64,000 bases of DNA, from the NCBI RefSeq assembly GCF_014132355.1, contig NZ_BLZO01000184.1, forward strand, positions 62,001 to 126,000, read 5' to 3'. The notes under the pieces are model-generated. The model made no database searches, had not been told where the DNA came from, and was given only the letters and a program-made list of their open reading frames with translations. Shown here piece after piece: positions 46,964 to 64,000 of the stretch. A program made the translations under genes and the position numbers. The stretch's first letter is position 1. Each line of letters starts with the position of its first letter. The DNA is from Okeania sp. KiyG1. Its GTDB lineage: Bacteria > Cyanobacteriota > Cyanobacteriia > Cyanobacteriales > Microcoleaceae.

Positions 46964-47092
46964 CTCAAAAGTTATATCAGTTTTAGGTTTTAGAAAGAAC
47001 ACCAGGGGTAAAGGTATTTGAAAAAATAAATTCTTGGCTTTGTTTGAGAAATAATATAGAGTCTAAAATATTGCCCAATAGAATCCAAAATC

Positions 47093-48265
47093 ATGCCTGA
47101 AGCCTTTTTTTTTGTCATTCTACTGTTGCAACTACCAGCAACAGCTATCTTACTATCGCGTCTCATTAAAGGTCCTACTCGCCAACCACCATTAAAACCT
47201 GACTCACCCACACCAGAATTAGTAGGTAAAGTAACTGTTGTCATACCAACTCTTAATGAGGCCACTCGCATTACTCCCTGTTTACTGGGGTTGAGTCGGC
47301 AAAGTTATGAAGTGCGGGAATTTATTATCGTTGATAGTAATTCGATAGATGATACTCAATATATAGTCAAAACTAAGGCAGAAACAGACCCAAGGTTTCG
47401 CTTAATTACGGACGACCCTTTGCCCTCTGGATGGGTAGGTCGTCCGTGGGCTTTGCATACAGGCTTTTTGAGAAGCTCTCCAGAGAGTGAATGGTTTCTC
47501 GGGGTAGATGCAGATATTCAACCAAACCCAGGGTTGGTCGCTAGTTTGGTCAAAAAGGCAGAGGCTGAAAACTATGACCTGATTTCCCTGTCGCCACAGT
47601 TTATTCTGAAATATCCAGGAGAGCTGTGGCTACAACCTGCTTTACTCATAACGTTGGTCTATAGATTTGGACCTACGGGCACCGGGGCACAAACGCCGGA
47701 ACGAGTTATGGCCAATGGTCAGTGTTTTTTGTGTCGGCGCTCGGTGTTGTCAGAAGTGGGAGGTTATAGCAGTGCTAAGGGTTCTTTTTGTGATGATGTA
47801 ACTCTGGCTAGAAATATTGCTGCCCAAGGTTTTAAGGTGGGGTTTTTGGATGGGGCGGAGGTTTTGCAGGTCAGGATGTATGAGGGTATGGCAGAAACTT
47901 GGCAGGAGTGGGGGCGATCGCTTGACTTGAAGGATGCTTCCCCTACTGCTCAAGTTTGGAGTGACCTGTGGTTATTGTCAGCTACGCAGGGTTTGCCTTT
48001 GTTGATAGTTTTGAGTTATTTATTGTTGAGTTTGCCTGTTGATATTTCTTTGTCTTCCAGGTTTTTGTTATTTGGATTAAATTTATTTTTACTATTAATT
48101 AGATTTGCTTTGTTGTTAGCGATCGCTCCTGCTTATGATTTGAGTAAAGCTAAATTTGGTTGGTTATTTTGGTTATCTCCTTTAGCAGATCCTTTTGCAG
48201 TTTTGCGGATATTTTTATCTGCGATGAAAACTCCTAAAAAATGGAGAGGTAGAGTTTATAATTAA
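47093..48265 (+). CDS. cruG: 2'-O-glycosyltransferase CruG
   Basis: 390 aa. An N-terminal membrane segment is followed by a GT2 family domain: VTVVIPTLNEATRI, FIIVDSNSIDDTQ, WFLGVDADIQPNP (DxD-like), MANGQCFLCRRSV and FCDDVTLARNIAAQGFKVGF. Two or three C-terminal membrane spans end in FWLSPLADPFAVLRIFLSAM. CruG attaches the sugar at 2'-OH of myxol. Its last 33 codons (48160-48259) are duplicated at 57246-57345, on the far side of a three-gene cassette, in the same orientation. Confidence 0.92.
   Translation: MPEAFFFVILLLQLPATAILLSRLIKGPTRQPPLKPDSPTPELVGKVTVVIPTLNEATRITPCLLGLSRQSYEVREFIIVDSNSIDDTQYIVKTKAETDPRFRLITDDPLPSGWVGRPWALHTGFLRSSPESEWFLGVDADIQPNPGLVASLVKKAEAENYDLISLSPQFILKYPGELWLQPALLITLVYRFGPTGTGAQTPERVMANGQCFLCRRSVLSEVGGYSSAKGSFCDDVTLARNIAAQGFKVGFLDGAEVLQVRMYEGMAETWQEWGRSLDLKDASPTAQVWSDLWLLSATQGLPLLIVLSYLLLSLPVDISLSSRFLLFGLNLFLLLIRFALLLAIAPAYDLSKAKFGWLFWLSPLADPFAVLRIFLSAMKTPKKWRGRVYN
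48160..48259 (+). repeat. Direct repeat, left copy (cruG 3' end)
   Basis: 100 bp, 95% identical by my count to 57246-57345 (five substitutions, no gaps), from TTGGTTATTTTGG to GGTAGAGTTTAT. It is part of the intact cruG coding sequence and bounds the 48.3-57.2 kb cassette on the left. Confidence 0.85.
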
Positions 48266-48697
48266 TAATTAATAATTAATAATTAGGGTTTGCTGAAAAA
48301 GTTTTATCAAAATAATATGGGTCTAATATCAAATCCGGTAGCATCGGTGTAATTAGATGAGGAGATGGGGGGATGGGGAGATGGGAACCCACCCCTAACC
48401 CCTCCGAGGAGGGGAATATCGAGAAATATTTGGTAATGGTTGAAGATGGAACATTTTTTACGTGCCGAATTAAACGGATTTGATATAAAACCCCGCCTTT
48501 TAAGGCGCAATATTTTTGGAGAGTTGCTCAAATCCCCTATTTCCCCTCCTCGGAGAGGTTAGGGGTGGGTTAACTTCTGACTTCTGACTTCGTTAAGGGT
48601 AAGGGTAGGAGACAGCGATACTGGAGACAACTCACCCCTAACCCTTCCGGTGGAGAGTAGAGCAGGGTTGGGAGGATGTCAATTCTGGAACGTTTTG
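48266..48697. repeat. Gap at left edge of cassette
   Basis: ATTAATA heptamers at 48262-48283 follow the cruG stop. A lone MITE end, AGGGTTTGCTGAAAAAG, is at 48285-48301. A tnpB right-end-like block, CCCCGCCTTTTAAGGCG with AATATTTTTGGAG, is at 48482-48520, and GGTTAGGGGTGGG with CTTCTGA heptamers at 48555-48592. No gene. Confidence 0.6.
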
Positions 48698-50488
48698 CTA
48701 CCTCTGACCTCTAAACAATACTCTACCTGGCAATACTTCCTCTTGAATCTTTGCATATACTCGCAAACAAGCTAAAACTTCCCCTGGAGTTCCCCCGCTA
48801 TCGCGTTCTAAATCATTATTCTTATTCTGGGAATAACTGAAAATATCAGCATAAGACCCCCATAAAGGACGAATTCTCACTTGATAACCAGCATTTTGAG
48901 CGCGAGTGCTGATAACAGCTAGTGTATCCCGACATTCCTTTTGCAATTTTCCCCACCAAGAGTCACGAGGAACTGGTGGTACATACACTAAAGAATGTAT
49001 CGCTTCATCTAGGTCTATTCTAGCTTCCAGAATTTTCAGGATATCACCACTCTCTTCTGTAGTTACTGCCCACTGGAAACGGTCGATCAAAGCATTAATA
49101 TACTTAGACTTTTGCTCTGAGTCTGAACTCAAACACCTCACACCAAAGCGATCGACTGCTTTCAAAGCATGATGTATTTGGGGGTCGAGTTCAATAAATT
49201 TAAGATATAAAGAAATAACTTTCGCTAGGAACAACAGTTCCTCTGGTAAATTTTTCTGTGTCAGTCGTGGGTCTAATTTTTCCTGAGTTGATAAGCATAA
49301 ACCTTGAGCTTTCAATTTACCAGTGAGACCGGGATACAATATTTCATCTTTAGTAGAAGGTAGTGGGATAAGCGATCGCTCTTCTTTCTCACCTCCCACT
49401 TTCAATGCTAACTCCAAAGCTTGGTTTTGCAATCTATTTGTCTCTACTCCTGGAAGTCGCAGCAGCAGACATTGTAGTTCCTGCCACAAATCAGAAACAT
49501 TGTTGCTATTTAACTCAACTGAACCGACATACTCTGATAATTTGTTGTCAGTAAGGAAAACTACCCGGAGACGAATTTTCATTTCATTCTCAGGTGGAGG
49601 TGGTATAGGTGACAACGGTTCTTTTGGTGGTATGGGTATCAACCCATTGTTTGCTTCTGAAAGTTCCAAAAGTGAATCAAGTTTCTCTAGTAATGTTTGA
49701 CATTCTTGTACTCCTGGAGCTGTTGTGTATTTGGCGATCGCTTCTTTGAGTTGAGCTGCCATTCCACGCAAACTCAAGCGCATTACCCATCCTAAATCTG
49801 AATCTTTTATTTTGTTGTCAGTCAGCAAAAGTTTCCAGAGATGAATTAGTTTCAATTCATTCTCAGGGGGAGATGGTATTGGTTCCAATGAAGGTTCCAA
49901 AAGTAAATCAATTTCCTCTAGTAATGTTTGACATTCTTGTACTCCTGGAGCTGTTGCGTATTTGGCGATCGCTTCTTTGAGTTGAGCTGCCATTCCCCGC
50001 AAACTCAAACGCAGTACCCACCCTAAATCGGAATCTTTTATTTTGTTGTCAGCAAGCAAAACTTCCTGGAGAGGAATTAGTTTCTGTTCATTTTCAGGGG
50101 GAGATGGTATTGGTTCCAACCCATGGTTTGGTGATATAGGGAGCAACAGATCGTTTGTTTCTGAGGAGTTAGTTTCTTGTTTCTCCTGATTTTGTATTGG
50201 TTCAAGTGGAGTTTTCCCTGGTGAACTCTCTTCATTCTCAGACGGAGGAGTTATAGGTATCAACACATTATCGAACTTAGTTTCTTGAATTTTCTCTTCG
50301 TTTATTGGTGTTGGTTTCAAAAGTGAATCAAGTTCCTTTAGTAATGCTTGACATTCTTGTACTCCTGAGTCTGTTGTGTATTTGGCGATCGCTTCTTTGA
50401 GTTGAGCTGCCATTCCCCGCAAACTCAAACGCAGTACCCACGATAAATCCGAATCTTTTTTATTTAATAAATTACTCAAGTGTTCCAT
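48698..50488 (-). CDS. Protein with three 45-residue repeats, cassette gene 3
   Basis: 596 aa, not recognised. Three near-identical blocks (about residues 11-58, 150-198 and 225-275) read DSDLGWVLRLSLRGMAAQLK, then EAIAKYTTAPGVQECQTLLE and LDSLL; they are predicted helical and separated by Pro/Glu-rich linkers (PIPSPPENE). The C-terminal 300 residues have no repeat and contain YPGLTGKLKAQG, FGVRCLSSDSEQKSKYINALID, YVPPVPRDSWWGKLQKE and RVLFRGQR. There is no membrane segment. It is transcribed after the Hsp70-like gene. If the cassette is SrfABC-like, this would take the third place, but I see no sequence evidence for SrfA itself. Confidence 0.75.
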   Translation of the reverse strand: MEHLSNLLNKKDSDLSWVLRLSLRGMAAQLKEAIAKYTTDSGVQECQALLKELDSLLKPTPINEEKIQETKFDNVLIPITPPSENEESSPGKTPLEPIQNQEKQETNSSETNDLLLPISPNHGLEPIPSPPENEQKLIPLQEVLLADNKIKDSDLGWVLRLSLRGMAAQLKEAIAKYATAPGVQECQTLLEEIDLLLEPSLEPIPSPPENELKLIHLWKLLLTDNKIKDSDLGWVMRLSLRGMAAQLKEAIAKYTTAPGVQECQTLLEKLDSLLELSEANNGLIPIPPKEPLSPIPPPPENEMKIRLRVVFLTDNKLSEYVGSVELNSNNVSDLWQELQCLLLRLPGVETNRLQNQALELALKVGGEKEERSLIPLPSTKDEILYPGLTGKLKAQGLCLSTQEKLDPRLTQKNLPEELLFLAKVISLYLKFIELDPQIHHALKAVDRFGVRCLSSDSEQKSKYINALIDRFQWAVTTEESGDILKILEARIDLDEAIHSLVYVPPVPRDSWWGKLQKECRDTLAVISTRAQNAGYQVRIRPLWGSYADIFSYSQNKNNDLERDSGGTPGEVLACLRVYAKIQEEVLPGRVLFRGQR

Positions 50489-50768
50489 AAAAATATTTTC
50501 TCTACAACAGTTTGCTAAAATTATTTGACCCTACTCTGTAGGGATGTTGTATGCAACGTCCCTACTCCCTCTTTTGGAGGAGATGTCTAATAGTTATCAG
50601 CAGTTGCGTTTTCAGATACAACGGGTTCCACCTTGGTGGGGTACACCCCAAAGCGAGCAAGATGCTCGCACTGGGAACATTTAATTTTTAAGAACTGTAC
50701 TTCTTATGCTTGGAATTTGCTGTAATTGTCTCAAACACGTACTGATAACTGATAACTGATAACTGATT
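50489..50768. repeat. Short gap inside cassette
   Basis: GTAGGGATGTTGTATGCAACGTCCCTAC at 50538-50566 is an imperfect palindrome also seen at 54506 and half-preserved at 29553 and 5483. TGATAAC heptamers at 50741-50766 overlap the 3' border of the Hsp70-like gene. Confidence 0.55.
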
Positions 50769-53700
50769 CTAATGTATTCCCGAAAATGGATTCTTCTTTT
50801 CTTCTATCTTATTTGGTTCATATTGCAACTCATCTTCAAAAACATATCCTTCCTGCTTTAGACATTCCCACTTATTCGATTTCCAATAGGGAACTGTTCC
50901 CTGATGTAATCGTAAAATCCCCTTACTATCCAAACTCACATAATAGTCACAAGGATATTCAGTTTTAGTCTCCGGTTTCAACTTCCCAATAAGTTCCCAC
51001 TTATCGGTATTTGGATCGGGGGATTGGAAATAAAAACTATATTCTCCACTCAAAGGAACTGGAGGTAAAGCTTGACTAATTATCCCAATTTCTGGAGAAT
51101 TATTGTCGCCATCATATTGAAAAACTTCCTGACCCTGACTATAATCTTTCTCCTTATCAAATACAAGTGTATGAGCATCTGTTTTCATTGCTGTTGCAGA
51201 CTCAATTACATTCACAGCAATATTGCACATCACTCTACCCTCAGAAATTAGTGGAGAAATTTTGGTAACGTCCGCAGCATTAAGACTGGAAATATTATCG
51301 GAATTAGAAATTAAATAGTGGGGTTTACCTTGACAGAAAAATAACTTAATATTTAGTTCTTGGTCAATTTCAAATTCAACTTTAATTTTGCTGTTAAATT
51401 CCTTTTCTGTCATTTCCAAATTTTTTTGCAATTCTTGAGAATCATAACTACCCCATAGTTGTTCTTCCTTATCTTCAAAATCTTTTCGGTATATCACAAT
51501 TTTTAATTGTGCTCCATAGAGTTTTCCATCGGGTTGTTCGCTGCGTACTCTCGCTACTGACTCTTTGGCGTCAAGTTGATAAAGTTGTTCACCTGCTTTA
51601 AAAATAGTTAAGTTACCATCTATAGTCCTCAGAGTAAAAGAACATGGCAAAAAATAAAGCAAATTTTTGACATCAATGTAAAGTTGGTTTGCCCCTTTTC
51701 TGAGCAATGGTTTAGATTCTTTCGGATCAAAAATGAATTGTCGTAGGTTTTGAGCATAACACGCTCCTGCGGAAGTTGCTAACTTAGTATATTCTGGGAC
51801 AAAAGTAATTTTTTCTGAGTTCCAAATAAAACGTTCTGATTGAGACTTATTAAATTCTTGATAAAGTTCCTCTTCTACTAAATAAAAACCACAGGTTTTT
51901 CCAGACAAAATCAACCAATCTAATTGTTCTTTTTCATCAGAATTTTGAGATTTTTCTTGTCTTGACAAACCACTTTCTACCAACCCTTTAGCAATACCAA
52001 CTGCTTCCTTAATTACAGGTTTAGCAGCTTTTTCTAACTGACTTAAAGTTAAACTTACACTTAAATTATTAACTCCATCACCTTGTAGTTCTAAATTTGT
52101 TGACGCCAATAATTCAGTTATTTTCTGCCCCTCTAACACAAAAGTAGGTTCCACAAATTCATCTGTTTTACCCTTGGCCAATACTGATTTTTTAGCCTCT
52201 TCTGCATATTCCCAAAGAGTGTAAAATACTTGCTGAGGAGCTGATGATTTTGCATTTTTCCAGCGAGTTGGTAACACTTTATTCGCAGTATCTAAAGCAT
52301 CCTTATAAGTAGCATCAGTTTCCGGATTATCCTTATCCACAAAAGCTAATAAATTGCCACTTTCAAACTTATTATTATTCAGGAATTTTTCATTCAGGTC
52401 ATTTAGCTGATTTGTCAATATATCTGATTGAATATTTCCTGCTTGCACCGCTGTCAGCAAACAATCGGCAATAGCAACCTTGAGCAAGCGAAATATATTG
52501 AGAGTAATCTGTTCCCCACCCAAATGTAAATGACCAGAAGAACCTAAAAGTTGGGGAGTCAGTTTATAATAGCGTCCTCCAGAACCTCGGTCTTCATCAC
52601 CCTTGAAAACTTCTATCTCTTCAAGTGTGAAGTCGATTAAAGCTAAATCGGTAGTTCCCCCACCAATATCTAACACTAAAATATTTTGCGTCCATTGGTC
52701 TCCATAGCGACGACATCTGGTTTTCAAAGATTCAATCCCTACATTCAAGTCTCCACCAAACTCTCGCCATAGGAAAAAGATGGCTACGGATACAGCTTCA
52801 TCATAAGCCATCTCCACATTCTTAATACCCAGTTTTTCCACCAGTTCTTTGATTTCCTGGCGCACTCTGGGAGGTGCTATAGTCGGGTAAGTAATCACTG
52901 CATTATTAAAGCGACCTTCAGAAAGTCGATCTGAGTTGCGAGCGCAATACTCTGAAGTTGATTGAATCAGATAACGAAAAGCAGATTGCACCAGTTCTTC
53001 TGCTTTAATCTCCTTACTGTTGCCATCTAAGTTGACATTAATTAGTCGCGAGCTAGGTTGACCTAGATAGCGTTTGGGTGAGTGGTGAAATTTACCTGTT
53101 ATGTCTTGGTTTTGAGCGATAGCATCTAATCTATTTTGTTTAGATCGTCTTCCCATAATTACTTTAATTGAATCTGATTCAATACTTTCTATTTCTAACT
53201 CGCTAGGAATTTCGCTAAGTTTGGTAATTTCATCAAGTTCTACTGGAATTAAACTTTGCCACTCCAACGGTGGAACCCGAAACACTTCGTGATAAATACG
53301 ATTAAGTGCTTTACTAGCAGAACGGCGAAACCATTCTTTACGTTGGTATAGACCAACTTCTATAAGGCGAATCCCTTCCAATAAGTATTTAATATCTGTT
53401 CCTAAAAAGATTTGGCTTCCTAGATTACTTTGGTTGGTATCGTTTATGTTTGGCAATTCCCTGCTAATTTCTGTTATTAACTTTTTCCACTCATTTTCCC
53501 AATCTTGTGTAACTACACCTGGTTTAGTATCTATTGGTTTGTTATTTAACCACTCAGCTAAACTTTTGCGCAACTTCATTTCTTGTTCTCTTGGTAAATG
53601 CTTTGGAGATACTTGAACTTTAGGATCGAATAAGGTAACAGTTGTATTACTTGTGCCAAAATCAATTGCTAACCAACCAGGATGCTTGCCTTCTGATGAA

Positions 53701-54221
53701 GGAGTAACTGTAGGTGATGAACTTGGAGTAACTGTAGGTGATGAACTTGGAGTAACTGTAGGTGATGAACTTGGAGCAACTGTCGGTGATTGAGTTGGAA
53801 TAGCTGTAGTTGATTGAGTTGAGCTTTCAGAATGAGAGATAATGTGGCACTTAGCTTGCAAATTTTGGGGTTGGGAAAGCTGAGGATTACCCTGAGCATC
53901 AGAATCAAAATATTCAACTTCTACTTTTAAAGTACAGTCAACATCTGTAGTTAGAGGTTTCTCTAACTCGCAATTATATTGTTTTAATTTTTGAGGTGCT
54001 GAAACTTTAATTGGTGGATTCGCCATAACTTGACTGTAAGCAGATTTTATCTTTGTTGCCAGTTCTGGTGGTTGTCCTTCAACAGATATACTAACAATAG
54101 ATATATGGGGAATATTGTCATTTGAAGGAGTTAGTTCAATGACCGGAAGTAGTAATAGTTCATTGTTGGTTGGTTGAGTTTTTAAGACAAAACTTGTTAG
54201 TAGTTCAATTTTTAGAGACAT
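50769..54221 (-). CDS. Giant Hsp70/actin-fold ATPase, SrfB-like, cassette gene 2
   Basis: 1150 aa. Residues 1-125 are a beta-rich N-terminal domain; 130-178 are a Ser/Thr/Pro linker with four SSSPTVTP units. The actin/Hsp70 ATPase core spans about 180-810, with phosphate-1 loop WLAIDFGTSNTTVTLFD, phosphate-2 loop NILVLDIGGGTTDLALIDF and a late adenosine-type segment (LATSAGACYAQNL). About 330 further residues follow (EYSFYFQSPDP, YYVSLDSKGILRL). Size and layout resemble the SrfB family (Hsp70-like virulence factor) rather than DnaK; no J protein is adjacent. AGGAAG lies 7 nt before the ATG. It is followed by the three-repeat gene and preceded by the GTPase gene. Confidence 0.78.
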   Translation of the reverse strand: MSLKIELLTSFVLKTQPTNNELLLLPVIELTPSNDNIPHISIVSISVEGQPPELATKIKSAYSQVMANPPIKVSAPQKLKQYNCELEKPLTTDVDCTLKVEVEYFDSDAQGNPQLSQPQNLQAKCHIISHSESSTQSTTAIPTQSPTVAPSSSPTVTPSSSPTVTPSSSPTVTPSSEGKHPGWLAIDFGTSNTTVTLFDPKVQVSPKHLPREQEMKLRKSLAEWLNNKPIDTKPGVVTQDWENEWKKLITEISRELPNINDTNQSNLGSQIFLGTDIKYLLEGIRLIEVGLYQRKEWFRRSASKALNRIYHEVFRVPPLEWQSLIPVELDEITKLSEIPSELEIESIESDSIKVIMGRRSKQNRLDAIAQNQDITGKFHHSPKRYLGQPSSRLINVNLDGNSKEIKAEELVQSAFRYLIQSTSEYCARNSDRLSEGRFNNAVITYPTIAPPRVRQEIKELVEKLGIKNVEMAYDEAVSVAIFFLWREFGGDLNVGIESLKTRCRRYGDQWTQNILVLDIGGGTTDLALIDFTLEEIEVFKGDEDRGSGGRYYKLTPQLLGSSGHLHLGGEQITLNIFRLLKVAIADCLLTAVQAGNIQSDILTNQLNDLNEKFLNNNKFESGNLLAFVDKDNPETDATYKDALDTANKVLPTRWKNAKSSAPQQVFYTLWEYAEEAKKSVLAKGKTDEFVEPTFVLEGQKITELLASTNLELQGDGVNNLSVSLTLSQLEKAAKPVIKEAVGIAKGLVESGLSRQEKSQNSDEKEQLDWLILSGKTCGFYLVEEELYQEFNKSQSERFIWNSEKITFVPEYTKLATSAGACYAQNLRQFIFDPKESKPLLRKGANQLYIDVKNLLYFLPCSFTLRTIDGNLTIFKAGEQLYQLDAKESVARVRSEQPDGKLYGAQLKIVIYRKDFEDKEEQLWGSYDSQELQKNLEMTEKEFNSKIKVEFEIDQELNIKLFFCQGKPHYLISNSDNISSLNAADVTKISPLISEGRVMCNIAVNVIESATAMKTDAHTLVFDKEKDYSQGQEVFQYDGDNNSPEIGIISQALPPVPLSGEYSFYFQSPDPNTDKWELIGKLKPETKTEYPCDYYVSLDSKGILRLHQGTVPYWKSNKWECLKQEGYVFEDELQYEPNKIEEKKNPFSGIH

Positions 54222-54615
54222 TATTTATCTTCCTCTTTATTTTTACGTTTGCACGAAACCCGCACTCCCTATCCCCTTTTTTTTTCTTGTTACCCCCTTT
54301 CAAAGGAGGATTAGGGGGGATAGATCGATGTCAATTAATATTGCAGTTTAACAGATAATAATATGTTAACCTGCTGCTGCATAAATCAACAGTAAATTAC
54401 TACAGTTTATTTTTTTATTCCCTTAAAAGGGGAAACCTGAGACCTTATTTTTTAGTTATTTCTGCTGATAAAACCGATATAAAACGAATAAGTTACATTT
54501 TATGTGTAGGAACGTTCGCATTTTTGTTATGCAACGTCCCTAACTTCGGCGGTCACTCATCCACAGACATTTACTGGTCTTGCCCGACCGTTTATACTCT
54601 CTTACCTAAAAATAC
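54222..54615. repeat. Gap inside cassette
   Basis: Positions 54285-54325 have CCCCCTTTCAAAGGAGGATT. A short mosaic repeat lies at 54405-54470 (CCCTTAAAAGGGG). The palindrome family with ATGCAACGTCCCTAAC lies at 54506-54545. The Shine-Dalgarno sequence of the Hsp70-like gene lies at the left border. No gene. Confidence 0.55.
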
Positions 54616-57228
54616 CTATCGCTTAACTTCAACTGATGCAATTTGAGATAGATTTTGTAACCACAGAGGTGTTTTAGTTTCTAACTCATCTGCTGCTATA
54701 TACTTCAACAGTGCTTCGTTTCTAGAAATAGCGTTTAAGCGGGGAACTTCTTGATTTAGAATCCTGTTCAAAATATCATTCACTTTCTTAGTCATCTTCC
54801 CTACATATTCTACTAGCTGTAGCTGCATACAAGAATTATTAATTTCATTTCGTAATCTTAGCACTAGAATTTGATTGTTAAATGATCTCGGTTCAGTCTG
54901 GTCTCTTTCTCTTCTGTCAGGATTCCAGTCAAACACTTGACCTTTTTGATGTTCTTTTTCTGCACGAGCTAGAGGAAATATGCTATCAGCATCTATAGTT
55001 AGAGTATCATCCTCAAGCTTACTTTTCTGAAGAACAAACGGTTTCCAATATTGACTTAGATCGTTAACCTGGGAGAGAGTTGTAAAACAGTTTGCTTCTT
55101 TTTTACCAAAATTTTCCCTGATATTTTTCTTGATTTCCTCTCTCATGTCAAGTGGCAAAATTTCCTGAAGTTTTTGGCGTTGAGGTGCGAGTTCTCCAGA
55201 TAATTTAGTGAATAGTTCTGTAACTGCTTCTTTAATACGATCGCGAGCCAACTTCTCCAGTTTTTCCACACTATTCTTAAAGGTTAACTCAAAATCTTCA
55301 CTCTTAGAGGGAGTCTTCTCATCATCTTCTAGTTCATAATCATAACCAAAATCTATTATTTCCTCATCTTCTATAGACACTATCCCATCCTTGGTTTTAT
55401 CAAAAAGTAAACTCCACTCATTCCATTTAAAGAATATTTCATTAGTTACTTCCTCTTTCACTACCTCAGTAATCTCATCTTGTAGTGTTTTCTTCTTCAA
55501 ATCTGTTCTCAAACGAGTGTAGACATTGTAAACTTCTTCAATAGTTTGAGAAAGCTCAATAAAAGTTTGACTGTCAGAATCTGGTATATATTCAGGAATT
55601 TTCTCTAATACTCCCTTTAGTTCATTCTGGTGCTGTTGACAAACACGAGCTTGATGACCAGTATCTTCTTCTAGTTGCTTCAAACCGTAAGCTTTTACAT
55701 GGTCTATAATTAGCGAACGCAACCTCTTTACACCTCCATCATATACAAAATCCTTTAGTTGTCGCTGTAAAACACCCGCTGAACTAGAATCTAACATTTC
55801 AGCCAACTTTTCCCATGTCGGAGCTATGTCATCCTGATATCTTTCTATTTCCCGCATAAAGTCTTGAGAACATACTTCCAAAGTAGTTGAAAGTTTTGTC
55901 AACTCCTTCAAAGATGACATTTGCGACAATAGTACAACTCTCTCTGGTTTAGTAGTCAAACCTTTAGCACCTGTCATCGTCAACTTTAGAACATTCAATT
56001 CGTCTAGCACATCTTCTTCTTTTAGTAGAGCTAATTCCTCAGCTAAATCCTCAAGAGTTTCCTTATCCCCCTCCGATAATGGTAGTTGGTTAAAACGACC
56101 CACTCCCACTAAAATCCTGTCTTTCAGGTCTTGACTCCCGCCGTCTTTCTCCATCATACTCTTAATTTTATCCGCAGTTTCTCCCCCTGGATGCTTACCA
56201 TTCAACAATAGCAGAATTGTTTGTACTTCTTTGAGTTCCCGCAAAGACAGGAAAGCATCTCTCACCCCAGAATTAGCTGCTCCTAGTCCGGGAAAATCTA
56301 GCAAAACAAACTCTTGATTTTCCCCTAGAGCGGACAAATCCCAGATTTGTTTTGAGACTTTAACTGTGACATCTATCCGACGAATTAAAGAGAAACTGTT
56401 TTTTAGGTCTTGAGCAGATGGTCTAGCAGGATTTAGCCAAGGTTGAGGAGAAACGACTAACTCTTGAAAGTCGAGTTCCAGAACATTTGGTGGGAGTTTT
56501 AATTTTAGTCCATCTTGAGCTGTGGCCATATCAACTTGATAGAGGCGATCGCAGATATTCTGGCCATAAACTCTATAGGCAAGCAAAAATCCTACCAGTT
56601 CCCGCAGCAGAGAACGTAATTCTTTATTTTGACTCGCCCCCCAGGTTTGTTTACACCATCCCAGGATGCCGTCAATATCTATATTTGTAGTAGTAAATTT
56701 CTTGAGGGGATCTGGAGATTGTTTCGCTTTCTCTGCTGCTACTTCAAGCATATAATCCAGACATTCTTTGACCTCATTATGAGACAGATATTTAATCGTA
56801 AATTCCCCAAATTCTGTCTTGTGCAAGTCTTCTGACTGAACTGGGTCTAGATGAATAGCTGTAACATTTCCTGTGGTAGGATTTTCACTTACTGGTAAAC
56901 CATCAGCGTATCCAATTAAGCTTCCGAGTAATAAGGTTTTCCCACTACTAAATTCTCCCATTAAACCAATTTTTACTGGGGAAGATGCAAGTTCAATAGT
57001 TTTTTTGGCTGCTTGTTCAACTTTTTGTAAATTGTTGTTAAGCTCTCCGGGTATCCAATCTGGCAGGGGTTGTTGTTGGGATAATGAATCTATCCCTTGG
57101 ATAATGGAATCTCCATATTCTTTGAGTCGGTGCAGTTGTTCTTGTACCATTGGATAGTTTTTTTGACATATTTTAATACCATTTTCTACCAATTTTCTAG
57201 AAATCGCAAGTACCGTATATGTATCCAA
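54616..57228 (-). CDS. Dynamin-like large GTPase, SrfC-like, cassette gene 1
   Basis: 870 aa. The GTPase domain (about residues 80-430) has G1 LMGEFSSGKTLLLGSL, a G2 Thr region NPTTGNVTAI, G3 LLDFPGLGAANSGV (DxPG) and a G4-like VGRFNQLP that departs from NKxD. Long amphipathic helical regions follow (to about 850), with acidic EDEEIIDFGYDYELEDDE at about 630. No membrane segment is evident. The combination with an SrfB-like neighbour suggests the SrfC class. The start is odd: the frame opens with TTG at 57228 just after a stop, and the cruG tail copy begins only 18 bp upstream, so the native 5' end or promoter may have been cut off. Confidence 0.8.
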   Translation of the reverse strand: MDTYTVLAISRKLVENGIKICQKNYPMVQEQLHRLKEYGDSIIQGIDSLSQQQPLPDWIPGELNNNLQKVEQAAKKTIELASSPVKIGLMGEFSSGKTLLLGSLIGYADGLPVSENPTTGNVTAIHLDPVQSEDLHKTEFGEFTIKYLSHNEVKECLDYMLEVAAEKAKQSPDPLKKFTTTNIDIDGILGWCKQTWGASQNKELRSLLRELVGFLLAYRVYGQNICDRLYQVDMATAQDGLKLKLPPNVLELDFQELVVSPQPWLNPARPSAQDLKNSFSLIRRIDVTVKVSKQIWDLSALGENQEFVLLDFPGLGAANSGVRDAFLSLRELKEVQTILLLLNGKHPGGETADKIKSMMEKDGGSQDLKDRILVGVGRFNQLPLSEGDKETLEDLAEELALLKEEDVLDELNVLKLTMTGAKGLTTKPERVVLLSQMSSLKELTKLSTTLEVCSQDFMREIERYQDDIAPTWEKLAEMLDSSSAGVLQRQLKDFVYDGGVKRLRSLIIDHVKAYGLKQLEEDTGHQARVCQQHQNELKGVLEKIPEYIPDSDSQTFIELSQTIEEVYNVYTRLRTDLKKKTLQDEITEVVKEEVTNEIFFKWNEWSLLFDKTKDGIVSIEDEEIIDFGYDYELEDDEKTPSKSEDFELTFKNSVEKLEKLARDRIKEAVTELFTKLSGELAPQRQKLQEILPLDMREEIKKNIRENFGKKEANCFTTLSQVNDLSQYWKPFVLQKSKLEDDTLTIDADSIFPLARAEKEHQKGQVFDWNPDRRERDQTEPRSFNNQILVLRLRNEINNSCMQLQLVEYVGKMTKKVNDILNRILNQEVPRLNAISRNEALLKYIAADELETKTPLWLQNLSQIASVEVKR

Positions 57229-57582
57229 AAATTAGTAGAGCAAGTTTGGTTATTTTGGTTATCTCCTTTAGAAGATCCTTTGGCAGTTTTGCAGATATTT
57301 TTATCTGCTATGAAAACTCGTAAAAAATGGAGAGGTAGAGTTTATGGGTAATTAGTAATTCAGGACTTACGCATGAGTGCTATTGGTAGGGTGTGTTAGC
57401 GGTAGCGTAACGCACAAAACCCTATATTTATTGTTAGTGAGTAAGTGTTGTAATTGTTAAAGAGGGCGAATACCATTCGCCCCTACAATCTGGGTTCAGT
57501 TCCCTGCGATCGCCAGATTTATGATGCGAGATACAGTAGAGAAATCTTAAAAATAGCGATCGCATATTGCTAGTCACTACAG
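57229..57582. repeat. Right border of cassette
   Basis: It contains the cruG tail copy (57246-57345) and then a half MITE (CAGGACTTACGCA at 57361 and GGGCGAATACCATTCGCCC at 57463-57482). GGTAGCGTAACGC at 57400 is a small palindrome. Two HIP1-like GCGATCGC sites are at about 57507 and 57556. No gene. Confidence 0.65.
57246..57345 (+). repeat. Direct repeat, right copy (cruG tail fragment)
   Basis: The fragment keeps the cruG reading frame (WLFWLSPLEDPLAVLQIFL, ending WRGRVYG and a stop). Three of the five differences from 48160-48259 change an amino acid conspicuously (A-E, R-Q, P-R). It has no start codon and directly abuts the 5' end of the GTPase gene. Confidence 0.85.
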
Positions 57583-58071
57583 TTATGGTTTAATCCAACC
57601 TTGAAAAGCTGCTACTAAAATATTAGCAATTGGATTATTGAGAGCTTCTTTGAATGTTTGTATTCCTGATGATTTTAATGCTCCTATTACTCGCTGTTTT
57701 AATCTGGGATTATTTTCTACAATTTCAACAGCTTGAGCAACAACTGCCATTTGGTCTGCTGTGGTTTCTGTAGGGTTTGATTGTTCTAATTGTTGGAGAA
57801 GTTGTTGAATTTCTGCTGCTGTTTCAGTTAAATTCTTTGGTTGAGCTTCGTTAATATTTCTAATTAGTGTATCAGCGTTGATTGTTCCGTTGTTCAAATT
57901 TACAGCTACATTAGTGTTATTAGCGTTTTGGTTCTCACCTTCTCTTTTATCAACACCTGTAACAAAACCGCCTTTTTGTTTGATTTGGCCGCCGTATATA
58001 GTGGTATTTTTTGAATTATTGTTTTCCATAATGCTTGTCTCTAGATGTGTACTATTTGATTTTTCAGTCAT
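57583..58071 (-). CDS. Small protein with C-terminal helical module (paralogue A)
   Basis: 162 aa. The N-terminal half is Asn-rich, with short glycine turns (NTTIYGGQIKQKGG, VAVNLNNGTINADTL) that look like a beta-solenoid cap. The C-terminal half is a helical module: NLTETAAEIQQLLQQLEQS, ADQMAVVAQAVEIVENNP and LKQRVIGALKSSGIQTFKEA, ending in NILVAAFQGWIKP. I know this kind of tail from many cyanobacterial proteins with variable front ends, but no function is established. The neighbouring gene shares the front part of the module. An alternative start is the ATG at 58029. Confidence 0.75.
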   Translation of the reverse strand: MTEKSNSTHLETSIMENNNSKNTTIYGGQIKQKGGFVTGVDKREGENQNANNTNVAVNLNNGTINADTLIRNINEAQPKNLTETAAEIQQLLQQLEQSNPTETTADQMAVVAQAVEIVENNPRLKQRVIGALKSSGIQTFKEALNNPIANILVAAFQGWIKP

Positions 58072-58245
58072 ATTGTGTTTAGTTGAACAACTATAATCAA
58101 TTTCTATGTTTCTAACCTGTAGGGAAGTTTCAGATAACCTCTCAAAATTGTCGGGAATTTACCGGACAAAATACTGTCCTGGAGAGTTCAATGTCAACAT
58201 TGAAAACTATACCAATTGTCGTTGGAGGATTCTAGATATCATTCT

Positions 58246-59274
58246 CTACAGATGTGGTTTCCACACTCTTATAATTTGTTCTTTGTGTACGAAATTGTTT
58301 TTAAACATCTCAATTTCTTTAGGAAATGTCAAGTTAGGTATCTTGGTTTCTATAGAGTTGAATTTTTCTAATTGTTGAAAGAATTCCTGCATTTCTGGTG
58401 TTGTTTCAGCTAAAGTTTTTTCTTGAGCTTCGTAAATATTTTCAGTTAGTGTATCCGTGTTGATTTTTCCGTTGTTATAACCTACACCTATGTTAGTGTT
58501 TTGATGCTCAATTTCTCCTAAACTAATACCTATACCAAAACTGCCTTGTTGTTCTATTTGATCGCCGTGTATGATAGTGCTTCCCTCTAGATTAAATGTA
58601 CTACCTAATACATGATTGTGTGTAACGTTTGATTCTCCATTCATCGCAGAGATTCCCCATGACACAAAAGTTGAAAGTCCAACACTACACCCTATTGTTG
58701 CTATAGAAGTCTGAGTACTATTTTGAGTTCCATTTTGAGATAGATTACTATTTCCGCTATTGTCATCGTCTGTATCGCTGTCTTCTGAACTAGAATTATT
58801 TTGAAGTTGCGGTTGGTTTATATAGGGATTTTGGAAGGAACCTAAACTATATTGATTGGAATATTCCGAACTGTGTGCATAATTTACCCGTGTACTATTG
58901 ATAGAGTAAGGGGAAAAGTTGTCTGAATGGTTATCCAGTGCATAATTCAAATCTTGTGTTTCGGTTTCTTGCTGATTGCTAGTAGGGAGGTAGTAACCGT
59001 TGTCTTCTCCATAATAAGGAGAGTTATAGTTATTATCAAATTCTCCTCTTTCATAATCATTCCACTCATTTGCAAAGGAGTACGGTGAGTGATTTTCATA
59101 AATATTCTCCGTAGTAGGTATGCCATACTCTGGGCGATCGGGATATCCTGAACTCGGCGAGGATAAATGATCGTTTTGATATGACAAGTGGCTAGAATCA
59201 TCTAATATTTCATCTGAATATTCATCAGATTGATCGGACATAGAAAATGCATTCTGCAAATTAGGAATATTCAT
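58246..59274 (-). CDS. Asn/Ser-rich protein with truncated helical module (paralogue B)
   Basis: About 342 aa from the ATG at 59274. Residues 1-180 are low-complexity Asp/Ser/Tyr/Asn; a hydrophobic stretch at about 185-210 (TIGCSVGLSTFVSWGIS) may be a membrane segment. Then come STIIHGDQIEQQGSFGIGI, NNGKINTDTLTENIYEAQ and KTLAETTPEMQEFFQQLEK, which align with paralogue A. After that the helical module is disrupted (IPNLTFPKEIEMFKNNFVHK) and ends early. It is probably a duplicated, partly degraded relative. The frame can be extended to 59337 with a poor N-terminus. Confidence 0.65.
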   Translation of the reverse strand: MNIPNLQNAFSMSDQSDEYSDEILDDSSHLSYQNDHLSSPSSGYPDRPEYGIPTTENIYENHSPYSFANEWNDYERGEFDNNYNSPYYGEDNGYYLPTSNQQETETQDLNYALDNHSDNFSPYSINSTRVNYAHSSEYSNQYSLGSFQNPYINQPQLQNNSSSEDSDTDDDNSGNSNLSQNGTQNSTQTSIATIGCSVGLSTFVSWGISAMNGESNVTHNHVLGSTFNLEGSTIIHGDQIEQQGSFGIGISLGEIEHQNTNIGVGYNNGKINTDTLTENIYEAQEKTLAETTPEMQEFFQQLEKFNSIETKIPNLTFPKEIEMFKNNFVHKEQIIRVWKPHL

Positions 59275-59595
59275 GGTGGTAAAACTCCATATCAAAAATT
59301 CTGGCAGGCAAAAATATTTCTGGACTTCCCTCTGCAATTACAGAAAGTTATATCCTTAGGACTTACCCATGCTTCACCTGGGAAACGCTATCTGTAGGGG
59401 CGAATGCCATTCGCCCTCACTGGATTTAGTGTCTGTGCGTAAGTATTGACCCTTTCATACATTTGCCTCTATATGCTTGCTTTAATTATAGTGCTTTGAA
59501 TTATAAATGGTGGGTTAGTTAAAAAAAGTAACATTTTACCACGATTCTCGTTTACTCTTTGCTAAAATATTGAAATCTTAAGGTTCAGATTTTAT
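59275..59595. repeat. Divergent gap with MITE
   Basis: A MITE of the AGGACTTACGCA family spans 59358-59448, with the inner GGGCGAATGCCATTCGCCC. The remaining 145 bp before the GTPase genes are AT-rich and should hold their promoter; I see no certain -10/-35. Confidence 0.55.
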
Positions 59596-61979
59596 ATGAC
59601 TTCCTTAGAGCAACCTTCTACAAATCAAAATGAGAACCACATGAATCCCTTATTAGGATGTTTAGCATATCCTGTGGGTATTGCTGTAAGTAACCTCATA
59701 GGAAAATGGGTTGACTACAAAACCATACAACCACAAGCTCATCGTTTTCGAGAACAGGAACTAGAGACACAACATCAGTTTCGTTTAAAGGAACTAGAAA
59801 AACAATACGAACAGAGCATAACTAAATCCTTTATAGATTCTGAGATTAGGATAAATGAACAACAAATCATTGAACATTTAAAGTCAAGTTATTCTATTTC
59901 CATAAAAAAGCTTTTATAGATTTAGCTAGAGAAGATGCAAACAGTCCTTTTTTTGATGGGATAGAGACAACTCATCAAGTTATAAAGGGGTTGCATGAAA
60001 AGACAGGTTTACCAATCATTTTGGTATCTCCTTTTTGGGATGATACTAAACCTAAAGACAAAAATGAACAGGGTGGCTATGTTGATTTTCGCGCCTCTTT
60101 TAATACTTCTTATAGTTGGCATAATTTAGCATCTAAGCAGGATGGCTATTTTAAGCGACCTTTATATCAAACAGATCGGGATATAAATTACATTTATAGT
60201 GTACTTTCTGATGTTCCTATTATTTTAGTACATGGAACAATTCAAGGGGTTCATTCAGCTCAACAATTTGTCCAAAGAATTCACCCTCATATTACTTTTT
60301 GGAATTTATTGCCAGAGCAACAGGATAGTTATACAAGCCTAAATTTAAGGTTTTTCCCTCTTGAACTTCCTGTCGGAAAACCTGACAATCCTGATATTTA
60401 TCGGCAAATGGGTGAATATAGTCTAAATTTGCAAGATACTGTCAGTAAGTATTTAGCTAAAGGCATTGGTTTGTTAAGTTCTTTTTATCATTTATATCGT
60501 TTTGAAACTCGTCCTAATTTACAACAATTTGAGTTAGAAAGTGAAGAGGAACTAGAGATTTTATCACTTCAGGTAAATGAGATTTATGACTTTCTAGCTC
60601 AAAAGAACTCTAACAAAGCCAACTATTATAAACTTGAAAAGTCGGTACTATCTTTAGAGCGTAACCTCGACGAAATAAAAGGCAAGAAAAAATTAGCTCC
60701 TAAAGGCAACTCTAAGCTAAATTTGGAAGCAACTGAAGTTTATTGTTGTTGGTTTGCTGAACGACTAGATAAAATAGCTACAACTATTATTGAATTTGAA
60801 CAGCAAGAAGGTGTAATTAATTGTCAATCTCTTGTCGCTACATTACAAGAATCAATCAATAAACTGCTAGATATAGGTAATCTTAGAATCTTGATTATTG
60901 GAGATTTTAATCGTGGTAAGAGTACGATTCTTAATGCTTTGCTTGGAAAAAATTTGCTACCTACGGGAGTAACTGCTGCTACTGCAATTCCTACTTTTGT
61001 AAAATATGGTAAGCAGGAAAAAGTAGTAGTTCATCAGAAAGATGGTACAGAAGAATCCTTGAATTTTGAACAATATAAAAGGAAATACACGCTTAACTCA
61101 AGAGAAGTAAAACATCAAATAAAGAATGTATTTAAGTCAGTGGGAGGTTGGCTAAATCCTCTAGACTATGCTGAATTTTATTGTCCGATTGAATTGTTAT
61201 CTAGGGGAGTCGAGTTTATCGATACAGCAGGATTAAATTTTACAGAAGAAGAAAATAAAAAAACTTTTTCATATATTCAGGAATGTCATGCGATTCTTTT
61301 CGTTTTAGCCGCCGATCAACAATTTACTCAGCAAGAAAAAGATTACCTAAAAAGATTACTCGGAATCAAGAAAAAGATTGACAATAGCAAACACCAATCA
61401 CGATTAATACAAAGTGAAAGTGAACTTCCAAAAAGCGGAAATATAAAGCAAGTCAGACCGATTTTTTACTTGATTAATAAATGGGAAAATATTGAAGAAT
61501 ATGAAAAAGAAGAAATCCATGAAATTTTTGTTGATAAATTCTGTGAATGTTTAGACATAAATCAAGATGAAGCAGAAAAAATGTGGGGAAATACAGTATT
61601 TGATGTTTATGCTAAAACAGCTTTAGAAAATTTAGCTCAAGGAAAATCTCTTAACGGTACTGGAATTAAAGAATTTCAAAAACGGCTTGATGATTTATTA
61701 AGTAATGAAGGATTAAAAACTAAATTATTACAAGCTGTTCAAATAGCAGAAATTGTTAAAGCTGAAATTGCTTCAAAAGTCAGTGATAAATTAGTTTTGC
61801 ATAAACATACTGAGGTTTACCATGAGGCAAATATCAAACATTTACAAGCCTTACAAGATAATATTTCTGCTCAAGTGGAAATAATTGAGGCTAAGTATAA
61901 TGAAATAGTAAGAAGTTTAACTAAATCTAAAGTTAGACCAAACTTTTTGTCCGATAAATTTCATCCTAAAGAAAATTAA
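59596..61979 (+). pseudogene. Dynamin-like GTPase 1 with novel N-terminal domain, frameshifted
   Basis: The ATG at 59596 gives a short hydrophobic segment (LLGCLAYPVGIAVSNLIG) and a coiled coil (EQELETQHQFRLKELEKQYE), and stops at 59919. One extra T near 59897 would continue it as FHKKAFIDLAREDANSPFFD into the long frame ending at 61979. Next is an uncharacterised domain of about 190 residues (LPIILVSPFWDDTKPKD, SDVPIILVHGTIQGVHS, ITFWNLLPEQQ). The GTPase domain has GDFNRGKST (G1), TAATAIPT (G2), FIDTAGLNFTEEE (G3) and INKWEN (G4). It ends in a coiled coil without the membrane hairpin of its neighbour. 61 bp separate it from GTPase 2, so they are co-transcribed. Confidence 0.8.
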
Positions 61980-62040
61980 AAATCTATACTTTCTCAAAAT
62001 GAAAGTAATCAAAATTAAACAATAATTGAGGTTAACGACG

Positions 62041-64000
62041 ATGCAAAATCAAAATACTGGATTCAACTTAGAAGTAACAAAAGTTCGTCCTTTGTTTGCC
62101 GATCGACTTCAAGGAATGGCTGAAATAATTGCTCAATCTGAACAACAAGCAAAAAATAAAGGAGCATCGGGAGAATTAGCATTATCTGCTTTCATAAATG
62201 ATTTAGATAAAGAAATCGAAAGACTAAAAATGGAAAATTTCGCTTCTTGATTATTGGAGATTTTAATCGTGGTAAGAGTACGATTCTTAATGCTTTTTTT
62301 GGAAAAAGTGTGCTACCTATGGGAGTAACTGCTACTACTGCAATTCCTACTTTTGTTAAATATGGTAAACAAGAAAAAGTAGTAGTTCATAAGAAAGATG
62401 GTAAACAAGAATCTTTGAATTTTGAACAATATAAAAAGAAATACACGCTCAACTCAAAAGAAGTCAAAAATAAAATAAAGAATGTATTTAAGTCAGTGGG
62501 AGGTTGGCTAAATCCTCTAGACTATGCTGAATTTTATTGTCCAATTGAAGTTTTATCAAGAGGAGTAGAATTTATTGATACAGCAGGACTAAATCATACA
62601 GAAGAAGAAAATAAAAAGACATTTTCGTATATTCAGGAATGTCATGCAATTCTTTTCGTTTTAGCAGCAGATCAACAATTTACTCAGCAAGAACAAGATT
62701 ACCTAAAAAGGTTACTCGGAATTAAGAAAGAGATTGAAAATAGCGAAAACCAGTCACAATTTGAACAAGGTGAAAGTGCAGTTCCACAAAGCAAAAATAC
62801 AAAGCAAGTCAGACCGATTTTTTACTTGATTAATAAATGGGAAAATGTGGGAGAAGATGAGACAGAAGAAATCCATGAAATTTTTATTGATAAATTCTGT
62901 GAATGTTTAGATATAAGTGAAAATGAGGCTGCAAAAATGTGGGGAAATACAGTATTTGATGTATACGCTAAAACAGCTTTAGAAAATCTAGAGCAAGGAA
63001 AATCTATTGACGGAACTGGACTTAAAGAATTTCAAAAAAGACTTAACGATTTTCTAATTCATGAGCGATTAATGACAGAATTATTGCAAACTGTTGACAT
63101 AGCAAAAATTGCCGAAATTGAAGTTACTTCAAAAATTAACGAAAGATTATTTGTACTTGAAGATAAGGTAAAAACATTGGAAGCAGAAATTGAGGAAACT
63201 AAGCCTTATGTTGCTCTTATGAAAAAAAGTGTCCAAACTTTAGAGAAGTCTATTATAAGCGACAGAAAAGCCTGTATTGCAGAAGTGGCAAAAAAATATA
63301 GAACATATTTTTCTCAATTAGCCGAAAACTTTGAAGAAGAATTTAAAATGCCTGAAGTATTCAGCCTTGAAGATGATGAGCGTAAACAATATACCCAAGA
63401 TTTAGAGAATAAATTAACAAAACATCTACAAGACAAGTTGGAAATTTGGTACAACAGAAGGAATCAGATCGTCTCAGAGACTATTGAGACCTTAAGAAAT
63501 TCATTTGACACAGAAAAAAAAGATTACAGTCAAAAAAGAGATGTTGTCAGGAAAATTCTTAATGGAGGAAGTTTTAATATTGAGAGTCCTCCCCGGTTCT
63601 CAATTACTCAAAGTAGCTCATCAGAAAAATCATCATTAACTACAGCTGATGCTGCAGGATCACGATTTGGTGTAGCATTAGGCAGTGCTGCTGGAGCATA
63701 TATAGTCTCAGGAACTATTGCTGGTTTAGCTTTAACCCCTGTTGTAGGATGGGCATTATTAGGTGGTAGTGCTGTTGTGGGAGGAGTAGTAGGATTGTGG
63801 CGAGCTAAAGATTTTCAGAAAAAAATGCAGGAAAGAGCCAAAGAAGAATTTAAAAAATTACTAAAAGAAGAGGAAGTCTCAGCTCTTAAAAAGCAAGTTG
63901 GAGAATTATTTAACCCCTATGAAAAGTCAGCTAAATTAATGAGAGAGGATGTTGAATCCCTAGAAAAATCTCTTGGGAATCTATTGGAAATGAAAAGAAA
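62041..64000 (+). pseudogene. Dynamin-like GTPase 2, frameshifted, 3' end outside window
   Basis: The ATG at 62041 has GAGG 9 nt upstream. The first 70 residues (FADRLQGMAEIIAQSEQQ) stop at 62250. One extra T in AATTTCGC (about 62239) would join them as MENFRFLIIGDFNRGKST. From there to the window end the frame is open: G2 TATTAIPT, G3 FIDTAGLNHTEEE, G4 INKWEN, a long coiled coil, then a Gly/Ala hydrophobic hairpin (GVALGSAAGAYIVSGTIAG, then VVGWALLGGSAVVGGVVG) of the sort used by bacterial dynamin-like proteins to enter membranes, then another coiled coil. The GTPase part is very close to GTPase 1 (recent duplication). Bacterial dynamin-like proteins often work as tandem pairs. Confidence 0.8.

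Follow-up and report, generated by a model that had tools for sequence, protein, structure and literature searches.

Hotspots without mobile elements, in which recombination takes place at flanking core genes, are documented (PMC5635113, 2017, in the accessible part of its text). Integration by a homologous join at one end and an illegitimate join at the other has been described, as has circularisation with a single crossover (PMC3240628), and merodiploids born of transformation have been reported (PMC3784515), both as far as the accessible text of these papers goes. According to the portions available of PMC3191183 and PMC5426353, the microcin H47 island of E. coli spans 13 kb between repeats of 148 and 144 bp (76% identity) and has no integrase, and both its excision and its integration were detected. 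Other GTPase/HSP70 conflict systems are treated in PMC7159879; because SrfB and dynamin are absent from its main text, as available, the cassette described below is not filed with them. Among the matches listed, no mention of cruG was found in related literature and nothing on the cruG locus in the literature on Okeania genomic islands, and no literature was found that joins three of SrfB, SrfC, dynamin, Hsp70 and conflict systems.

The window, a 64,000-nucleotide stretch of DNA from Okeania, a marine filamentous cyanobacterium, contains a duplicated end of the pigment gene cruG, which encodes a glycosyltransferase, with a three-gene cassette between the two copies. The original prediction read this arrangement as site-specific insertion at the 3' end of cruG, by a mechanism that would be new unless the mobile gene has been lost. 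Most likely the duplication was left when related strains exchanged DNA in the ordinary way at a site of frequent gene swapping, and does not reflect a new mechanism of site-specific integration. The features of the locus are as follows (G002 and G005 being two of the Okeania genomes compared).

47093..48265, plus strand: cruG (2'-O-glycosyltransferase CruG), intact; NCBIfam NF045692, 668.9 bits against a cut-off of 600
48160..48259, plus strand: left member of the direct repeat, at the 3' end of the intact cruG; repeat search and ungapped comparison
48266..48697, no strand: spacer between cruG and the cassette, with dispersed repeats and content that varies by strain; comparison of relatives
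48698..50488, minus strand: gene 3 of the operon, 596 aa; ORF list, repeat search and length comparison of relatives
50769..54221, minus strand: SrfB-like gene with weak Hsp70/actin-fold similarity, 1150 aa; Pfam SrfB, 23.8 bits, cut-off 27.1
54616..57150, minus strand: gene for a dynamin-like GTPase, 844 aa if started at ATG 57150; Pfam Dynamin_N, 36.7 bits, cut-off 27
57223..57224, no strand: junction at which DNA common to the G002 and G005 cassettes ends and the probable cruG relic begins
57224..57245, plus strand: probable relic piece from the 5' part of cruG, aligned to cruG nt 116-140 (47208-47232) with 4 bp deleted
57246..57351, plus strand: 3' fragment of the probable cruG relic, including a stop; right member of the direct repeat
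57352..64000, no strand: right flank, two small ORFs with a common repeat followed by dynamin-like genes (LeoA-like)

The arrangement itself is as had been predicted. Positions 48160-48259 and 57246-57345 are identical at 95 of 100 sites, with five substitutions, no gaps and the same orientation, and the second-best ungapped match of the 100-mer inside the window reaches 48/100. A repeat finder lengthens the pair to 114 nt at 91%, and the left copy ends two codons (AAT TAA, 48260-48265) short of the end of the cruG ORF. When 48100-48270 was searched against its own genome (198 contigs), only two strong matches were obtained (E 1.8e-84 and 3.2e-40), the third-best having an E-value of 8.5e-4 over 27 nt. 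Exactly three long ORFs, all on the minus strand (48698-50488, 50769-54221 and 54616-57228), lie between the copies together with the repeat-bearing spacer, which holds no long gene, and a domain-library scan of the three ORFs found no integrase among them. Base composition, proposed as a further check of 48.7-57.2 kb against its flanks, does not mark the insert as foreign: its GC content is 0.380, that of the adjoining 5 kb on the left 0.390, that of the initial 47 kb 0.359 and that of the right-hand side 0.336, and 19 of 111 nine-kb windows deviate more from the window average in tetranucleotides than the insert does. By eye, the dispersed repeats of the spacer (48266-48697) are MITE-like, with inverted ends near ATATCAAATCCG / CGGATTTGATAT; G001 and G004 have spacer repeats akin to those of the window, yet different.

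Comparison of six Okeania genomes, including that of the window, revealed that the layout varies within the genus instead of being common to all relatives. In G004 the site is empty: cruG runs straight into the equivalent of window 57246-59175 in one alignment at 95.2% identity, which places the first ~1.8 kb of the right flank directly 3' of cruG and provides the strain, with cruG immediately before the DNA right of 57346, that the original prediction had proposed to look for. G001 has the layout of the window, including the right junction (L040 7479-7616), in diverged sequence and in a separate assembly. Its left-to-right continuity is presumed, since two of its contigs (C11 and C228) break inside the operon with no exact end overlap of 20-399 bases. 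An assembly artefact might be suspected in a draft genome of 198 contigs, and it is extremely improbable here because the separately assembled G001 has the same right junction in diverged sequence; the two copies also differ at five sites.

Two further genomes carry the cassette behind cruG in another form. In G002, cruG is followed by a spacer of ~2 kb, the cassette (48683-57223 at 96-98%), a TnpB gene and then an ABC exporter, with no second cruG tail at E <= 0.001. In G005 a spacer after cruG leads into the cassette's left end, at a contig edge, and no second cruG tail was found anywhere in the genome at E <= 0.001. Exact 127-base overlaps join the G005 cassette contig to two neighbours on each side; of the right-hand pair, one bears the ABC exporter, and the other bears a Tn3 transposase and a tyrosine integrase (both Pfam calls) with ParA/ParB-like genes (labelled by reading the sequences). 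Which of them belongs to the cruG copy was judged from G002. The second cassette copy of G005 (C62-C82-C72) was considered as a possible plasmid source with att sites and dismissed, no second cruG tail having been found in that genome; it may reflect a collapsed assembly or a strain mixture. Adjoining this second copy (L097 771-8579, contig C62) is a run of three small GTPase-like genes, one of which passes Pfam DO-GTPase2, together with genes for a 769-aa protein, a 376-aa protein and a vWA protein; none of these neighbours was found at 80 cassette loci (tblastn, E <= 1e-5).

The sixth genome, G003, has no cassette at cruG and instead carries a cytosine methyltransferase and a 221-aa ORF, for which the label of restriction enzyme would be a guess because it has no Pfam or PADLOC match at E 0.01. 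G003 (L051 183-184) also lacks the equivalent of window 47075-47650, that is the cruG start and the first ~186 codons, and the best cruG match in G009 likewise starts at residue 186. In the window genome, G002, G003 and G004, the contig that carries cruG has an ABC-exporter gene further downstream; in G001 and G005 this gene is on another contig, and the interval between the two genes presumably extends across contigs. This interval holds a methyltransferase in G003, a dynamin-like gene in G004, the cassette in G002 and G005, and the cassette plus dynamins in the window, giving four arrangements of partly defence-like cargo in six genomes. Related strains hold different cargo between the same conserved flanks, as is the case for hotspots without mobile elements, although G002 does have a TnpB gene there. 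Since the cargo differs among the six genomes, the cruG-to-ABC-exporter interval is a variable slot in Okeania.

The right repeat copy is probably not a clean cruG 3' end, because it is preceded by 22 fused bases that resemble the 5' part of cruG, clearly so in G001 and not in the window alone. These bases (57224-57245) were at first taken as filler; a search against the body of cruG then gave nt 116-140. In the G001 version the alignment to cruG nt 116-140 scores 28 (with 3000 trials under each null, 4 shuffles, 4 random 22-mers and 0 random segments reached this value), while the version in the window scores 21, which is not significant under the same three nulls (301, 582 and 1146 of 3000). 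At both positions where window and G001 differ in the G001 alignment, G001 carries the cruG base. Two other targets, the adjacent cruG bases and Trichodesmium upstream DNA, had been compared before the 5' part of cruG, and two scoring schemes were used; the other scheme gave 5 of 1000 shuffles for G001 and 105 of 1000 for the window. The nt 116-140 test compared cruG of the window genome, G001, G004 and G005, that of G002 having been missed by the start motif. Among the rejected targets, the cruG bases directly upstream of the tail gave weak alignments (25 of 1000 shuffles for the window and 78 for G001; 37 and 156 of 2000 random 30-mers; 100 and 404 of 2000 once the common TTTGG was left out), and Trichodesmium upstream DNA gave no match at the same offset. 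An 11-mer is common to G001 and the region upstream of the GTPase in one Trichodesmium MAG, 17 bases away, and would offer an origin for the putative 5' fragment that competes with cruG.

A derived G, absent from six intact tails, is common to the window and G001 in their right copies. Over 31 codons, each right copy has 3 nonsynonymous and 0 synonymous differences from the intact-tail consensus, compared with 6 and 5 for the six intact tails together and 3 and 0 for G003 alone, a pattern that would weakly fit relaxed selection. The interpretation of the right copy as a putative cruG relic with an internal deletion of ~930 bp is moderately supported.

With these observations, the mechanism favoured by the original prediction can be weighed. 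A tyrosine or serine recombinase, acting in trans or since lost, would have put the island at the cruG 3' end, the left copy restoring cruG and the right copy being the displaced original. The direct repeat does correspond to a gene 3' end and flanks a block of cargo, the site is empty in G004, and a tyrosine integrase gene is present on G005 contig C72, whose end overlaps the cassette contig. However, no recombinase is encoded by the three long genes, the G002 and G005 cassettes sit behind cruG without a second tail, the repeat adjoins what is probably a piece of the cruG 5' part, and a second tail was present in just 2 of the 40 genomes searched, including that of the window. Nor was the repeat seen beside other cassettes, where a search for it had been suggested: no cruG was found in the flanks of 78 of 80 GTPase loci, the other two being Okeania (tblastn, E <= 1e-5, flanks up to 10 kb, many of them shorter). 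We consider such an insertion unlikely; what endures of the prediction is a polymorphic segment with an empty site in a relative, and what does not is its site-specific entry at the 3' end.

A mobile island of the E. coli H47 type, lacking an integrase and excised and reinserted by host recombination at long imperfect repeats, would make G004 an excision product. The architecture is similar, with ~9 kb between ~100-bp repeats of 95% identity, and the empty site of G004 is in keeping with it, but the G004 tail lacks the base common to the right copies, and the cassettes in G002, G005 and at 78 other loci show no such repeat in the sequence searched. This origin appears quite improbable.

We find it more probable that homologous recombination placed a block of cruG plus cassette next to the resident cruG, the right-hand join being illegitimate, and that the redundant copy decayed. 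The ancestor of the window strain and G001 would have had its resident cruG followed by the dynamin-type flank, as G004 has now, and the incoming DNA, with cruG followed by the GTPase/SrfB-like cassette, would have come from a relative that already carried the cassette behind cruG. One end would have been joined by homologous recombination in the common cruF-cruG stretch and the other by an illegitimate join inside the resident cruG, apparently near nt 116, so that a cruG copy would have stood on each side of the cassette. Of the two, the incoming cruG would have stayed functional, while the resident one, now redundant, would have lost ~930 bp by internal deletion, leaving ~120 bp; an integrase would not be needed. 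What is observed is the two-copy layout in two genomes, the empty site, the cassette without a second tail in other relatives, the shuffling of alleles described below, the variable cargo and the derived base of the two right copies; the direction and order of the proposed events, the type of donor and the linear or circular form of the added DNA are inferred. Because the left spacer is not the same in the two cassette layouts, the donor is a putative one; no intermediate with a longer second cruG was seen among the six Okeania genomes, and G004 could be an excision product instead of the ancestral state.

Relatives of the GTPase were collected in named genomes, the best 80 of 176 being kept and some loci being cut by contig ends; judging by their titles, we take these to be cyanobacteria, largely of filamentous genera. 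Among these best 80 loci the SrfB-like gene was present at 77, gene 3 at 68 and cruG at 2. At two Scytonema loci (L114 and L124) cruF lies ~7-7.5 kb upstream of the GTPase, on the opposite side of the operon from Okeania. On sequence grounds, the cassette is a conserved, putative three-gene SrfB-like/dynamin-like operon. Translation of the GTPase probably begins at the ATG at 57150 and not at the TTG at 57228, since G005 has one base fewer just upstream of that ATG and the longer frame is thereby disrupted. A weak SrfB match occurs in 17 of 17 aligned members, the window protein lying under the Pfam gathering score, and no other Srf-named model appeared in the domain-library scan of the three cassette proteins.

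Complete relatives of gene 3 measure 355-436 aa in 65 of 66 cases. In the window its N-terminal unit is present three times (49658-50539; 231-bp repeats, 91% and 70% to the reference). The best library matches of gene 3 are all under curated cut-offs (Pfam Lambda_Kil, 2.6e-5, and CdiI_2, 0.0039; NCBIfam TIGR00044, 1.1e-4). In a structure model of a relative at L113, as distinct from the window protein, the N-terminal part is helical, and a comparison of the model with the PDB found no match (best E 0.73). None of the three cassette proteins had a PDB sequence relative, and all their PADLOC matches had E-values above 0.02. The neighbours in the slot, namely the methyltransferase and the LeoA-like dynamins, prompt the guess that the cassette has a stress or defence role.

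The cassette alleles are distributed differently from the junction types. Three genes outside the cassette, some of them partial, show 92.7-97.3% identity across all pairs of the six genomes. Within the cassette, the window and G002 form one class (98.0% for the SrfB-like gene, 96.2% for the GTPase) and G001 and G005 another (97.7 and 96.4%), with 82.7-85.8% between classes for these two genes. The contrast is sharpest in the 3' third of the GTPase (54616 to ~55400), at 97.8-100% within and 59.5-77.1% across classes. Outside that third the window GTPase is about 83-98% identical to those of G001 and G005. Some stretches in the middle of the GTPase blur the classes (for example, at 56571 the window has 90.0 to G002 vs 91.3 and 92.7 to G001/G005), and gene 3, from partial sequence, has 97.7% between the window and G002 and only 90.3% between G001 and G005. 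By junction, the window groups with G001, and G002 with G005. Since the identities pair the genomes one way and the junctions another, allele class crosses junction class, and exchange of cassette sequence between strains would be the simplest account of this shuffling.

Second copies of cruG also occur elsewhere. In an evenly drawn survey of 243 genomes of the order, including that of the window, the last 57 residues of CruG found a match in 198, six of them with two matches, one of which (G071) proved to be a single match split in two. G146 has an internally deleted second cruG ~1.4 kb downstream, from tandem duplication, and in both G186 and G115 a pair of adjacent long ORFs resembles cruG and could be duplicates or older paralogs. 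In G020 an 82-bp cruG relic (88%) lies 17 kb downstream, beyond two very large genes; the intervening ORFs (L193/L194) have 2106 and 2364 codons, and the same region contains a 235-bp repeat, at 86%, of the DNA just after cruG. Second copies or relics near cruG are thus present in 5 of the 198 matching genomes, including the window. Their varied length and content would fit duplication and decay better than one attachment site.

Such copies in G146, G186, G115 and G020 lend some weight to an internal tandem duplication of cruG and cassette in one lineage, followed by loss of the second cassette and most of the second cruG, with no foreign DNA involved. Against this, the flank directly adjoining the right copy is the one found after cruG in the cassette-free G004, so that a precise second deletion would be needed, and the allele shuffling points to exchange from strain to strain; we regard a purely internal origin as doubtful, and exchange between strains with decay of the redundant cruG is preferred. 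A broader generalisation, in which the 3' side of cruG would be a recurrent, integrase-independent site of acquisition and duplication in cyanobacteria, where cargo brings its own cruG and the resident copy is sacrificed, is a speculative extension that we hold to be rather unlikely. If true, functional cruG would travel with defence-like cassettes and leave datable relics.

The locus suggests that no recombinase need be involved when an apparently clean att-site duplication is found and a relative has the empty site. Diagnostic features to look for are fragments of the target gene beyond the apparent core, relatives that have the cargo and no repeat, and cargo alleles that cross junction types. 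The results also indicate that Okeania has a variable slot whose cargo is partly defence-like, and that filamentous cyanobacteria share a conserved, uncharacterised operon of three genes, of the GTPase/SrfB-like type.

Compared with described systems, the middle gene of the cassette resembles those of SrfABC-type operons (Pfam SrfB) in its weak SrfB match and in adjoining a dynamin-like GTPase gene, but the score of 23.8 bits falls below the domain cut-off of 27.1. Like the H47 island, going by the portions available of PMC3191183 and PMC5426353, the locus is a small, integrase-less island between long imperfect direct repeats with empty sites in relatives; mobility was demonstrated for H47, whereas here the island is known from its sequence, and of the two repeats one forms the end of a functional gene while the other is relic-like. 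The integration events in the accessible text of PMC3240628 and PMC3784515 come from experiments in other bacteria, whereas here the process is read from a decayed product, and in both a one-sided homologous join, or a crossover at a repeat, partly duplicates resident DNA. Compared with the hotspots of PMC5635113, as its available text describes them, the cruG locus differs in having a leftover duplicate of the flanking gene, and its likeness is drawn from arrangements in six genomes, not from recombination rates; that likeness lies in variable, partly defence-type cargo between conserved neighbours, with signs of allele exchange and no integrase in the long genes.
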